Shown one piece after another: positions 1,483 through 51,695 of a DNA stretch of 64,000 bases. Source of the stretch: Salarchaeum sp. JOR-1 (GTDB taxonomy: Archaea > Halobacteriota > Halobacteria > Halobacteriales > Halobacteriaceae); contig NZ_CP042241.1 of NCBI RefSeq assembly GCF_007833275.1, positions 682,001-746,000 on the forward strand. The letters are read 5' to 3'. Below the pieces are notes generated by a model, which did not search any database, had not been told where the DNA came from, and saw nothing but the letters and a program-made list of their open reading frames with translations. Made by a program: the position numbers and the translations under genes. Position 1 is the stretch's first letter, and each line of letters opens with the position of its first letter.

Positions 1483-2969
1483 ACGATTCAGATATGGACG
1501 ACAACACACCGGCGGACGACCGGCGCACGGCACGTGACTTCGACGTGGAGATAGACGACGTCCTCGACGAGGACGGCGACGACGAGGACGGCCTCTTCGA
1601 CGACCTCCTCCGCGGCGAACCTATCTTCGAGAACAAGGAAGTCCTCCGCCCCTCCTACACGCCCCACGAACTCCCGCACCGGAACGAACAGATCAACAAC
1701 ATGGCGACAATCCTCGTCGCCGCGCTCCGCGGGGAGACGCCCTCGAACATCCTCATCTACGGGAAGACTGGCACCGGAAAGACCGCGTCCGCGAAGTTCG
1801 TCAGTCAGGAACTCGAAAAGACCTCACGGAAGTACGAAGTCCCCTGCGAGGTCGAATACATCAACTGCGAGGTCACGGACACGCAGTACCGGGTGCTCGC
1901 GCAGCTCGCGAACACGTTCATCCAGCAGAACCGCGAGTTCGTCGACGAGCGTGTGAACGCCCTCGAAGACCTCGCGGAACGCGCACGCGACGACCCGCAC
2001 GCGCTCACAGATACGGAGTTCGACTCCGTGGAAGAAGTCGTCGAACGCGTGGACTCCCTGCTCGACGATCGCGAGGAGATGGATGACGTCCCGATGACGG
2101 GCTGGCCGACCGACCGCGTCTACACCGAGTTCTTCGACGCCGTCGACTACGTCGAACGCGTCGCCGTCATCATGCTCGACGAAATCGACAAGCTCGTCGA
2201 GAAATCCGGGGACGACACACTCTACAACCTCTCCCGGATGAACTCCGAACTCGACAACTCCCGCGTCTCCATCATCGGCATCAGCAACGACCTGAAGTTC
2301 ACCGACTTCCTCGACCCCCGCGTCAAGTCCAGCCTGGGCGAGGAGGAAATCGTCTTCCCGCCCTACGACGCGAACCAACTTCGCGACATCCTCGAACACC
2401 GCTCGGAGACCGCGTTCAAGGCGGACGCGCTCTCGGAGGACGTCCTCCCGCTGTGCGCGGCGTTCGCCGCGCAGGAACACGGGGACGCGCGGCGCGCGCT
2501 CGACCTCCTCCGCACCGCGGGCGAACTCGCCGAACGCGATCAGGCCGACATCGTCACCGAGGCGCACGTGCGGCGCGCGCAAGACAAGATCGAACTCGAC
2601 CGCGTCGTCGAAGTCGTCCGCACCCTCCCCACCCAGAGCAAACTCGTCCTGTACGCCATCCTCGTCCTCGAAAAGCACGGCGTGCACAACATCAACACGG
2701 GCGAGGTGTACAACATCTACAAGCGCCTCTGCGACGAGATCGACGCCGACGTGCTCACCCAGCGCCGGGTGACCGACCTCATCAGCGAACTCGACATGCT
2801 CGGTATCGTGAACGCCGTCGTCGTCTCGAAGGGCCGCTACGGCCGCACCAAGGAAATCAGCCTCTCGGTTCCGGTAGAGGAGACCGAGGCAGTCCTCGAA
2901 GCCGACTCCCGGCTCGGGGACGTTGAGAACGTCACGCCGTTCGTGCAGGCGCGCTTCGACAACGAGTGA
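1479..2969 (+). CDS. orc1: Orc1/Cdc6 family replication initiator
   Basis: Origin-binding AAA+ ATPase that recognises ORBs and loads the replicative helicase. 496 residues. After an acidic N-terminal segment (about 25-45) come Walker A GKTGTGKT (95-102), Walker B with LDEID (223-227), sensor 1 GISND (247-251), and a C-terminal winged-helix DNA-binding domain (about 390-496). An acidic stretch of about 50 residues (150-200) lies between the two Walker motifs. The first start is GTG 1479; an ATG at 1494 is an alternative and removes only five residues. The gene borders the origin and is transcribed away from it, as expected for the cognate initiator. An ORB-like sequence overlaps its start. Confidence 0.97.
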   Translation: MNDSDMDDNTPADDRRTARDFDVEIDDVLDEDGDDEDGLFDDLLRGEPIFENKEVLRPSYTPHELPHRNEQINNMATILVAALRGETPSNILIYGKTGTGKTASAKFVSQELEKTSRKYEVPCEVEYINCEVTDTQYRVLAQLANTFIQQNREFVDERVNALEDLAERARDDPHALTDTEFDSVEEVVERVDSLLDDREEMDDVPMTGWPTDRVYTEFFDAVDYVERVAVIMLDEIDKLVEKSGDDTLYNLSRMNSELDNSRVSIIGISNDLKFTDFLDPRVKSSLGEEEIVFPPYDANQLRDILEHRSETAFKADALSEDVLPLCAAFAAQEHGDARRALDLLRTAGELAERDQADIVTEAHVRRAQDKIELDRVVEVVRTLPTQSKLVLYAILVLEKHGVHNINTGEVYNIYKRLCDEIDADVLTQRRVTDLISELDMLGIVNAVVVSKGRYGRTKEISLSVPVEETEAVLEADSRLGDVENVTPFVQARFDNE

Positions 2970-2972
2970 GTT

Positions 2973-3659
2973 CTACGAGACGAGTTCGGTGACGGCCTCA
3001 CCGACTGTGGCTTCCCCGGAGAAGACGAGCCGAACGTAGCCGAGCCACGGCACTCGGAACTCCGCGCGCCCCTTCACCCACTCGGGCTTGACGGGGCTGC
3101 TGATGCCGTTCACCTGGTCGTAGTACTGGTTGTTGTCGCCCTTCGTGACGAACCCGGCGTGGGGGGCGGGGCAGTTCGCTATCGCCGCGCAACTGCTGCC
3201 GTCGACGTACGCGGGGGTCGCTCTGTCATACCAGTTCTCGCCGTCCGCGACCCAGAACCGCGCCCGGTGAATGATGGGCGTGGTTCCGCCGTTCCCGTTG
3301 CGTTGATAGACGACGACGTCGCCGTACCCGCCGAACCGCTGGTAGTCGATCTCCTCGCCCATCTCGTGGGTGATGACGCCGGTGTCGGCGTACCCCATAT
3401 CGCCCGTGAACCGGTCTTCCTCCACGACGAACACGAGGTCACCGCGCTCCATGTGCGGCTCCATGCTTCCGGATTCGACGGCGACGAGCGGCGGCCACAG
3501 CCCGCTCACGCTGAACAACAGCATGCCGACGAGGAGGACGACGAGCGCGCTCGACACCATCTCGCGGGCGAACACGACGAACTCGTTGTCTGTCCGGAAC
3601 ACCCACCGGAGAGCGTCCGTGGGGCTTCGTCGCGGATCCGGCGCGTCGTCGTCGGCCAT
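2973..3659 (-). CDS. sec11: Signal peptidase I, archaeal Sec11 type
   Basis: Membrane serine protease that removes signal peptides from exported proteins at the outer face of the membrane. 228 residues: an N-terminal acidic cytoplasmic part, one membrane segment (about 34-58) and an extracellular S26 catalytic domain. Catalytic Ser65 in SGSMEPH, His131 in IIHRARF and Asp175 in KGDNN give the Ser/His/Asp set of archaeal and ER-type enzymes, rather than the Ser/Lys pair of bacterial ones. The gene converges on orc1, with 3 bp between the two stop codons. A CTTTTGTCC element about 28 nt upstream of ATG 3659 is a likely promoter. Synteny with orc1 and DP1 is typical of oriC1. Confidence 0.93.
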   Translation of the reverse strand: MADDDAPDPRRSPTDALRWVFRTDNEFVVFAREMVSSALVVLLVGMLLFSVSGLWPPLVAVESGSMEPHMERGDLVFVVEEDRFTGDMGYADTGVITHEMGEEIDYQRFGGYGDVVVYQRNGNGGTTPIIHRARFWVADGENWYDRATPAYVDGSSCAAIANCPAPHAGFVTKGDNNQYYDQVNGISSPVKPEWVKGRAEFRVPWLGYVRLVFSGEATVGEAVTELVS

Positions 3660-49588: not shown

Positions 49589-49652
49589 GGATACGTCGCG
49601 CGGGGGAGAAAGAAGGAGTGTTTCAGAGAAACATCTATACGGAAAAAGATAA

Positions 49653-49664
49653 TTATTTATATAT
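49653..49664 (+). promoter_or_regulatory. AT-rich promoter of the low-GC gene
   Basis: TTATTTATATAT is a strong TATA box; transcription would begin near 49685. The whole 49589-49715 gap is much richer in A+T than the flanks and may also hold the promoter of the minus-strand membrane protein gene. Confidence 0.6.
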
Positions 49665-49715
49665 GTGGGGTATGGGGTCTGATGTATAGTAGATAATAAC
49701 TCTACTAAAAGGGAT

Positions 49716-50660
49716 TTGATTAAATCAATTGGGGTTGTTACCGTTGGTGCTACAGCACTCACGACGGCCTCAAGAACTACGGAAGCGGCCGAGTTGCCTG
49801 GGGGAGGAAGTTATCCGATCTCTCTTCAGAATTCGAACTCGGAATCGCAGATGAAAAGCGCCATCACGTGGGAACAGTCCATCGGGATTGACGTTTCCTA
49901 CTACGGGACTTTTTCCAATCCTAACAAAAGTGATGCAAACAATCTACATGAATTCACTATCAGTGGATATGGTGGGGCAAGAAAAAACGATAAAGGAGAG
50001 TGGATCAAGAACGGCGATATTGCCGGACAAGACATCCTGATTGAGAACCATGAATCCACTTCGATGTTTTTGCCGAATGGGGGTGGAACCTCGTTAGGCG
50101 TCTCACCCGCGCCTTCAGATGCTGAGCCCGCCTCTTACGTAGACACTGTCGAGATTGCTATAAATGCGATATTGTCCGAACTTAACCCTTATTACGGTTA
50201 TCTAGTTACGGCAGCGGATCTCGTTAGTTCTCTACAAGATCCTGGTGACAGCCCCGCTGGAAGTAGTATCTCAATGGGCTGGGATCATGTATCTGGGAGT
50301 ATAAATAGAACGGGGGTTTCAGATACCTCTAATTACCTCCAGATATACGTTGAAGATCCTGATGAGGTGGGCGGAATCACCGCAACAGAATCACTTGACA
50401 CCTTCCCAGGGTCCGTTAGTACTTCGCTTGATATTACTGTAGACCAGGGAGCGGTCGTCATAGCAAATGATACGTCCCTCCTTATGGACATGAAACGGCA
50501 TGCTCCTGAAAACGTCAAAGTTGTACGAACTGATGATGGTTACCCAGCCTTCATGATTCCTAAATCGAACTTCCCAAAAGGCGACCCGCTGAGAGCGTTC
50601 ACAAACGAGCGGGGTTATATACAAAAAAAGGTATATCCTGCATCCAAAAATACTAACTAA
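49716..50660 (+). CDS. Low-GC secreted protein of unknown function, start unclear
   Basis: 314 residues from TTG 49716, the first conventional start. The frame stays open upstream to a TGA at 49680 and adds NNSTKRD, which together with LIKSIGVVTVGA looks like a Tat-type signal (K-R twin basic). No ATG, GTG or TTG serves that longer form, so the natural start may be non-standard or mutated. The mature part is rich in Ser, Gly and Asn without cysteines and looks like an extracellular beta-rich protein. Base composition and codons (ATA, AGA, AAA) differ sharply from neighbours, which points to recent transfer. No family recognised. Confidence 0.7.
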   Translation: MIKSIGVVTVGATALTTASRTTEAAELPGGGSYPISLQNSNSESQMKSAITWEQSIGIDVSYYGTFSNPNKSDANNLHEFTISGYGGARKNDKGEWIKNGDIAGQDILIENHESTSMFLPNGGGTSLGVSPAPSDAEPASYVDTVEIAINAILSELNPYYGYLVTAADLVSSLQDPGDSPAGSSISMGWDHVSGSINRTGVSDTSNYLQIYVEDPDEVGGITATESLDTFPGSVSTSLDITVDQGAVVIANDTSLLMDMKRHAPENVKVVRTDDGYPAFMIPKSNFPKGDPLRAFTNERGYIQKKVYPASKNTN

Positions 50661-50665
50661 TTCCT

Positions 50666-51106
50666 ATGCAGATGCTGAATAGACGACGCCTCCTCTCTAC
50701 CGTTGCCCTCACAGCACTCGCGGGTTGTGCCGGATTCGAGAGTGACTCGTCGCCGAACTACGGGCTCGGTTCGATAATCGCGCTCAACAAACACACGCAG
50801 CCTCACCGGATGACCGTCCGGGTGACGCAGGGCGGCGACGAGGTCTTCCGGTCGTCGGTGAAACTCGCCGCGATGCAGGACGGAGACCCCGGGTGGCACA
50901 CGTTCGGGACGAGTCTGGCGGCCACGCGGAAAACGTACCGGGTGAATGTGCGTGTGGACGGGAGCGAATGGCGGCCCGCCCGACTCCCGTCCCTCGTCAC
51001 CGACGAAGCGTGCGTCGAACTCGTCTGTGACATCGGCCGCGACGGAAGCCTCGGTATCTTTTGGGGGCCCTGCTCTAGGTCGTCGACGGCGTCCACGACT
51101 GAGTAG
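50666..51106 (+). CDS. Tat-exported lipoprotein of unknown function
   Basis: 146 residues. Tat signal NRRRLLSTVALTALAGCAG with twin arginines and lipobox LAGC (cysteine at about 21), so it should be exported folded and lipid-anchored. The mature part is a small beta-strand-rich domain (RMTVRVTQGGDEVFRSSVKL, YRVNVRVDGSEW) with a late Cys pair (VELVCDIG, WGPCSR). It begins 5 bp after the low-GC gene but has normal haloarchaeal GC. Probably a resident gene, co-transcribed with its AT-rich neighbour. Confidence 0.75.
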   Translation: MQMLNRRRLLSTVALTALAGCAGFESDSSPNYGLGSIIALNKHTQPHRMTVRVTQGGDEVFRSSVKLAAMQDGDPGWHTFGTSLAATRKTYRVNVRVDGSEWRPARLPSLVTDEACVELVCDIGRDGSLGIFWGPCSRSSTASTTE

Positions 51107-51137
51107 CACCCCCGCGTTCCGCGACCCTCCGTTTCTA

Positions 51138-51695
51138 TCAGACGAACACGCGTACGGCGAGCAGGAGGACGACGACGCCGAGCACGTCGCAGACGTTCGT
51201 GACGACGGGAATCACCACGTCGTCGGGGTCGAGGCGGAACCGGTAGGCGGCGTAGGTCGCGGCGGCGGCGACGCCGACGGCGACGACGGCGAGCACGACG
51301 CCGCTCGCGGTGGCGACGAGCAGGACGGTCGCGAGCGGGAGGACGAGGCCGCCGAGCGCGAACTGGACGGCCCACGCGCCCGCGCCGACGAGCGGGAAGA
51401 GCGTGAGCGCGAGCGCGACGGTGGCGACGGCGTTCCCGGCGAGTTCGTCGTCCCGGGAGTCGAAGGAGAGCGTGCCGAGGTGGAGCGCGGTGGAGAGCCG
51501 GCTGGCGAGCACGCTCCCGAGGTTTCCCGCCATCCCGATAGTGACGGGGACCAGCGTGAGGAGGCTCGGATAGGTCGTCAGCACCGCCTGGCCGGTGTCG
51601 AGGACGAGGCCGCTCGCGAGTTCAACGAGCGTCAGGCCGACGAGCAGGGGGAAGGTCGCGCGAATAATCCCTCGGATCGTCCAGTCCTCGGGCAC
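51138..51695 (-). CDS. Half-size SLC41/MgtE-type membrane transporter (second half)
   Basis: 185 residues with about five membrane helices. LVPVTIGMAGNLGS (about 47-60) and SRLSTALHLG match the G-N motif of the SLC41/MgtE integral membrane domain, which transports divalent cations such as magnesium. It starts with GTG immediately after the stop of the 51696 gene. The two proteins are homologous to each other, so together they would rebuild the two-repeat transporter. Confidence 0.85.
   Translation of the reverse strand: MPEDWTIRGIIRATFPLLVGLTLVELASGLVLDTGQAVLTTYPSLLTLVPVTIGMAGNLGSVLASRLSTALHLGTLSFDSRDDELAGNAVATVALALTLFPLVGAGAWAVQFALGGLVLPLATVLLVATASGVVLAVVAVGVAAAATYAAYRFRLDPDDVVIPVVTNVCDVLGVVVLLLAVRVFV

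Follow-up and report, generated by a model that had tools for sequence, protein, structure and literature searches.

A probable start-codon loss in a halocin-like gene beside an intact candidate immunity gene in Salarchaeum sp. JOR-1

We describe a two-gene locus in a 64,000-nucleotide (nt) stretch of the haloarchaeon Salarchaeum sp. JOR-1 (contig NZ_CP042241.1, positions 682,001 to 746,000; the whole stretch is called the window below, and coordinates are counted from its first base). Gene A is predicted to encode a halocin-like protein with a twin-arginine translocation (Tat)-like export signal, and gene B, directly downstream, a lipoprotein. The reading frame of gene A is intact and carries ATA where its closest homologue (locus L003, also L056, from Haladaptatus sp. 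DYF46) and a paralogue in the same genome (L054) have ATG. We lean, with rather modest confidence, towards a recent loss of the start codon that silences gene A while the candidate immunity gene B stays intact. The locus comprises the following features.

49613-51137, no strand assigned: gained block with genes A and B; 14 of 14 related genomes lack it at this site
49656-49661, forward strand: TATA box TTTATA, read from the sequence (with TATATA, two bases further on, as an alternative reading); ATA 49686 follows its first base by 30 nt
49680-49682, forward strand: in-frame TGA that closes the gene A frame upstream, read from the sequence
49682-49684, forward strand: ATG in another frame, which stops after four codons (ATG TAT AGT AGA TAA), 26 nt from the box and off the spacing peak
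49686-50660, forward strand: gene A, frame for a halocin-like, Tat-like secreted protein, 324 codons with a TAA stop, recognized by similarity to L003 and by the family alignment
49686-49688, forward strand: ATA where the homologues start; it aligns with the L003 ATG (MTDKNS) and, by eye, with that of the strain's own paralogue L054 (MVDETKR)
49704-49724, forward strand: twin-basic Tat-like motif TKRDLIK; the Lys-Arg is common to L003 and L054, and the match to TIGR02811 is weak
49716-49718, forward strand: TTG, read from the sequence as the first standard start codon of the gene A frame; a product from there lacks the twin-basic pair
50666-51106, forward strand: gene B, lipoprotein of ~145 amino acids with RRR and a lipobox LAGC, candidate immunity protein; starts at ATG 50666 or 50672 and shares 32% identity with the gene beside L003

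Reading frame and start position of gene A

Gene A is genuine rather than a frame left open by chance, because its 324 codons hold no stop against ~17.7 expected at its own base composition (P(open) ~1e-8). The frame is open from TGA 49680 to the TAA at 50658-50660. From 49683 it reads TGT ATA GTA GAT AAT AAC TCT ACT AAA AGG GAT and then TTG 49716, with no ATG, GTG or TTG ahead of that TTG.

Comparison with relatives places the start at ATA 49686, a position that is well supported. L003 starts at an ATG with MTDKNSFQVSKRKIIKSAG, and L054 (matched at G000:C2:633525-634373) starts at an ATG with MVDETKRSMLKLAG; ATA 49686, followed by VDNNSTKRDLIKSIG, corresponds to the Met codons of both. We settled on this codon because both ATGs align there and the TATA box lies at the commonest distance from it. 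Upstream of the twin-basic motif, 28 of 30 family loci carry a standard start, the exceptions being the window and L015, which has lost its N-terminal part (the N-terminus table covers 30 of the 31 loci, L033 being left out).

The twin-basic pair at 49707-49712 is Lys-Arg, not Arg-Arg, as it is in L003 (SKRKIIK) and L054 (TKRSMLK). Gene A scores 17 bits against the NCBIfam model TIGR02811, far under the 48.45 cutoff, and has no Pfam match; the Tat-like signal, judged by eye, is in frame only if translation begins upstream of 49716. L054 is itself a second halocin-like gene of this genome, lying outside the window (2406-3431 of its locus, minus strand), with an ordinary ATG and an opposite-strand lipoprotein open reading frame (ORF) at its 5' end.

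Measured from the first base of the TATA box, the start codon lies at 30 nt in the window and in L003, at 32 nt in L054 and at 30 nt in L078 (a GTG start); these boxes were picked by eye in AT-rich upstream DNA, and their registers are uncertain. For a wider view we took 464 kb of the genome (the window and 20 further stretches), in which a wider box motif finds 418 boxes. A strict TTTAWW scan had given 80 boxes and few cases and was replaced, and a bacterial sigma-70 promoter scan was set aside as not applicable to archaea. In this sample, box-to-ATG distances peak at 30 nt (15 cases), and box-ATG pairs at 28-33 nt number 42, where four control codons give a background of 8.25. One start may count under several overlapping boxes in that figure; a count of frame heads takes distinct starts, and among frames of at least 120 codons lying 28-33 nt from a box it finds ATG 39 times, GTG 11, TTG 4 and ATA 3, with other codons reaching up to 14 by chance. 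The sample does not support a general use of ATA as a start, the remaining two ATA frames not having been searched for homologues. ATA 49686, at 30 nt, sits at the usual leaderless distance, and the spacing suggests that the mRNA begins there; ATG 49682 (26 nt) and TTG 49716 (60 nt) are both off the peak.

These results bear out the original prediction, which had the frame running back from TTG 49716 to TGA 49680 without a normal start: all of its coordinates check, and GTG 49665, which it had called severed, is in frame with TGA 49680-49682 between. Its proposed Tat-like signal, which spans the TTG, is visible by eye as the TKRDLIK motif and a hydrophobic stretch. The ATA-GTA pair to which it pointed includes the codon that aligns with both ATGs, found by the comparison of homologous starts that it had recommended. 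Among the three explanations it offered (a rare start codon, loss of function or a sequencing error), the second appears the likeliest, with sequence alone leaving some probability to each of the others. The halocin-like identity of gene A, the joint arrival of A and B as one block and the recurrent lipoprotein neighbours, described below, go beyond it.

Gain of the block, the gene A family and its lipoprotein partners

Both flanks of the A-B block are present in 14 of 14 loci fetched around its left-hand neighbour gene in related genomes (L040-L053). The flanks lie at most about 600 nt apart there, too close together to accommodate the block. In the sister species (G025) they are 91-95% identical, with window position 49612 matching L040 position 2513 and 51138 matching 2524, 10 bases between. 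Since the block is missing from all 14 loci, it was most likely gained, ~1.5 kb with both genes, in this lineage. At its edges (49621-49633 and 51137-51148) there is a short imperfect repeat, TTTCAGAGAAACA and ATCAGACGAACA, resembling the empty site of the sister species, TTCAGACGAACA. In L052 the flanks are about 600 nt apart, as against 10-180 nt elsewhere, and something else may occupy the site.

Close relatives of gene A are rare. It shares 39-43% identity with L003 (expect values (E) of 1.1e-66 and 1.5e-73); a query with the window protein alone matches, at E 0.001, 7 of 392 genomes in the order, its own included, with only L003 close, and no match occurs in the other 25 genomes of its own family. 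In other families, 2 of 28 genomes match with L003 as query, and 1 of 125 and 1 of 146 with a two-sequence alignment. At E 0.001 a seven-member profile has hits in 128 of 384 genomes from the order; many of these hits cover just the signal peptide. Family counts here cover the fetched loci, mostly one best match per genome, with further profile matches in no count; L030 and L031, whose proteins are identical, were counted separately. Members of the family have diverged strongly: a 26-member alignment has just 17 of its 519 columns at 60% identity or more, and it excludes L015, L021, L024, L029 and L033 (broken, partial or not inspected).

No relative turned up among PDB sequences, plasmids, phages or viral contigs; of two scans of genome contigs, the first gave none and the second only Haladaptatus sp. 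DYF46. Neither A nor B of the window has a match above the curated cutoff in Pfam or NCBIfam, or any match in PHROGs or PADLOC at E 0.1. Some other family members show weak Pfam or NCBIfam matches (3 of 7 to the Pfam Tat signal). Structure prediction for the gene A product was unsuccessful, with a mean predicted local distance difference test score (pLDDT) of 34.5 (two-sequence alignment).

The family appears to include halocin H4, which we regard as a strong lead rather than proven membership. A profile of the 26 members, window included, scores 76.9 bits against a provisional full H4 sequence and 63.9 bits against its mature part, while 998 shuffles score no higher than 6.6 bits; of the provisional sequence the two ends alone were checked, and these agree with the primers printed in PMC12893001. 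Pairwise, the window gene A matches the provisional H4 sequence weakly (22.6%, E 0.001). The H4 primer pattern is absent from 170 of 170 genomes of one family, and the provisional H4 protein has no match in plasmids or in the same 170 genomes, among which the presence of the halH4 genome was not established.

The ATG of gene B starts five bases past the gene A stop, and a 32% identical gene holds the same position in Haladaptatus sp. DYF46. Searching with a two-founder profile (window B and DYF46 B) through fetched flanks of about 1.5 kb in most loci, we found a B-type ORF near 20 of the 31 distinct A loci, or 18 of 29 once the two founders are set aside; L078, found later, also has one, giving 21 of 32. 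The control set, 114.7 kb made up of the window and 13 loci of its own family that surround an unrelated gene, gave a single hit, the window's own B. An iterated profile drifted, taking in an A-family frame and long ORFs with a control hit at E 1.6e-4, and its count of 26 of 31 was not used. The predicted structure of B (pLDDT 64.3, two-sequence alignment) is mostly β-strands, and the model has no PDB match at E 0.001. Gene A is broken or partial in four other loci: L015 has lost its N-terminus, L021 is divided between two frames, and an in-frame TGA interrupts L024 and L029. Genuine losses or assembly errors could account for these; three of the four (L015, L021 and L024) have a B nearby.

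Silencing of gene A and its alternatives

Our favoured explanation treats the locus as a gained two-gene cassette, in which A would be a Tat-exported, halocin-like toxin and B a lipoprotein that may protect the producer. The start codon of A would have turned into ATA, and the TATA box 30 nt upstream should yield a leaderless mRNA beginning at ATA 49686. Gene A would then yield little or no protein, or just a shortened, misdirected form initiated at UUG 49716, and B, with its own ATG, would remain intact, making the strain a tolerant non-producer. Poor or absent production is expected because haloarchaeal leaderless initiation depends strongly on AUG, and we read the gene as silenced because the codon at the leaderless position is neither AUG nor GUG. 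Any loss of gene A would be recent, since the frame is intact. Among family-conserved residues, the window keeps 12 of 27 and the intact relative L003 13 of 28.

Leaderless initiation in haloarchaea has been described as strictly requiring AUG, with AUG, GUG and UUG all functional on leaders that lack a Shine-Dalgarno motif (PMC3986360). A leaderless GUG gave 2.6% of the AUG level in one test (PMC4983044). UUG was inactive in short-leader and leaderless constructs and starts 0.2% of Haloferax volcanii genes (PMC4574771). The portion of the literature that we surveyed holds no test of an AUA start in haloarchaea.

Several points weigh against silencing, or against the roles proposed for the two genes. 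Hfx. volcanii has 118 native leaderless GUG transcripts (PMC4983044) and a leaderless GUC start is mentioned for Halobacterium salinarum (PMC4574771), which makes non-AUG leaderless initiation possible; UUG 49716 may work too, since leaders without a Shine-Dalgarno motif can use UUG. In their share of conserved residues the window and L003 rank lowest of the 26 members, and this measure is also compatible with slow decay. The G+C content of A (46%) and B (64%; window 68%) fits less well with one shared origin, and the two genes may have different histories. B as the immunity protein is a candidate by guilt by association: at the threshold applied, no B is seen at 11 of 32 A loci, A and B do not keep a fixed orientation to each other, and the control loci were drawn from the window's own family instead of the genomes that carry the A loci. 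Finally, the link to halocin H4 rests on a provisional H4 sequence.

An assembly or sequencing error, whose true base would give a standard start at 49686 and leave gene A ordinary and intact, strikes us as unlikely, if the best placed of the alternatives. Frame, twin-basic motif and TATA spacing are all as in an intact gene, with a single codon out of place, as an error would leave them. The site is not a homopolymer, however, and the genome (2.52 Mb) is assembled in 2 contigs at 99.98% completeness. If the error were instead a one-base insertion after ATG 49682, the box would lie 26 nt from the start, a distance at which the sample has 1 ATG as against 15 at 30 nt.

Distinctly less probable is that AUA serves as a working, weak start on a leaderless mRNA and holds a toxic product low. 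The intact frame, the ATA at the leaderless position and the GUC start mentioned for Hbt. salinarum are consistent with this. Its difficulties are that ATA heads 3 frames at 28-33 nt against 39 for ATG, no more than other non-start codons do, that 28 of 30 family loci have a standard start, and that leaderless GUG is already weak and UUG inactive in the constructs cited above. We give marginally less credit still to the fuller proposal that AUA at the extreme 5' end works and has been kept because it limits a secreted killing protein beside its immunity lipoprotein.

Translation from UUG 49716 on a leader of about 30 nt, yielding a protein with a Sec-like signal or one kept in the cell, is the least probable of all: this is the first standard start, of a kind that works on haloarchaeal leaders without a Shine-Dalgarno motif (PMC3986360), but it drops the twin-basic pair common to close relatives, UUG starts are as rare in Hfx. 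volcanii as noted above, and the aligned L003 codon is ATC, a non-start.

Significance and known systems

If our favoured explanation is right, the strain would show a one-base route from producer to tolerant non-producer, and haloarchaea would carry a widespread, fast-diverging antagonism module made of a secreted halocin-like protein and a lipoprotein. Gene A also offers a natural test of the strictness of AUG in leaderless initiation, with frame, box and spacing intact and the start codon alone wrong. The A-B association suggests where immunity to large halocins could be sought; in the halocin passages surveyed, halocin C8 is the only one with a named immunity protein, and no title that we came across concerns such a protein for large halocins.

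Halocin C8 and its immunity protein HalI likewise join a halocin to an immunity function, a likeness known from reference titles; in the window the two functions would fall to two genes. HFX_0892 (HmHapP) of Haloferax mediterranei, a protease-activated secreted precursor in haloarchaeal antagonism, resembles the role proposed for A, again by description only (PMC12893001). Halocin H4 (HalH4), also of Hfx. mediterranei, is like the predicted gene A product a secreted haloarchaeal protein of similar length, and its activation by an extracellular serine protease has been described (PMC12893001). Gene A has an adjoining lipoprotein gene, whereas no partner lipoprotein appears in the H4 passages surveyed. 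The nearest counterpart is the Haladaptatus sp. DYF46 gene, which shares with the window the Lys-Arg motif and the downstream lipoprotein gene, and differs in having an ordinary ATG start where the window has ATA.
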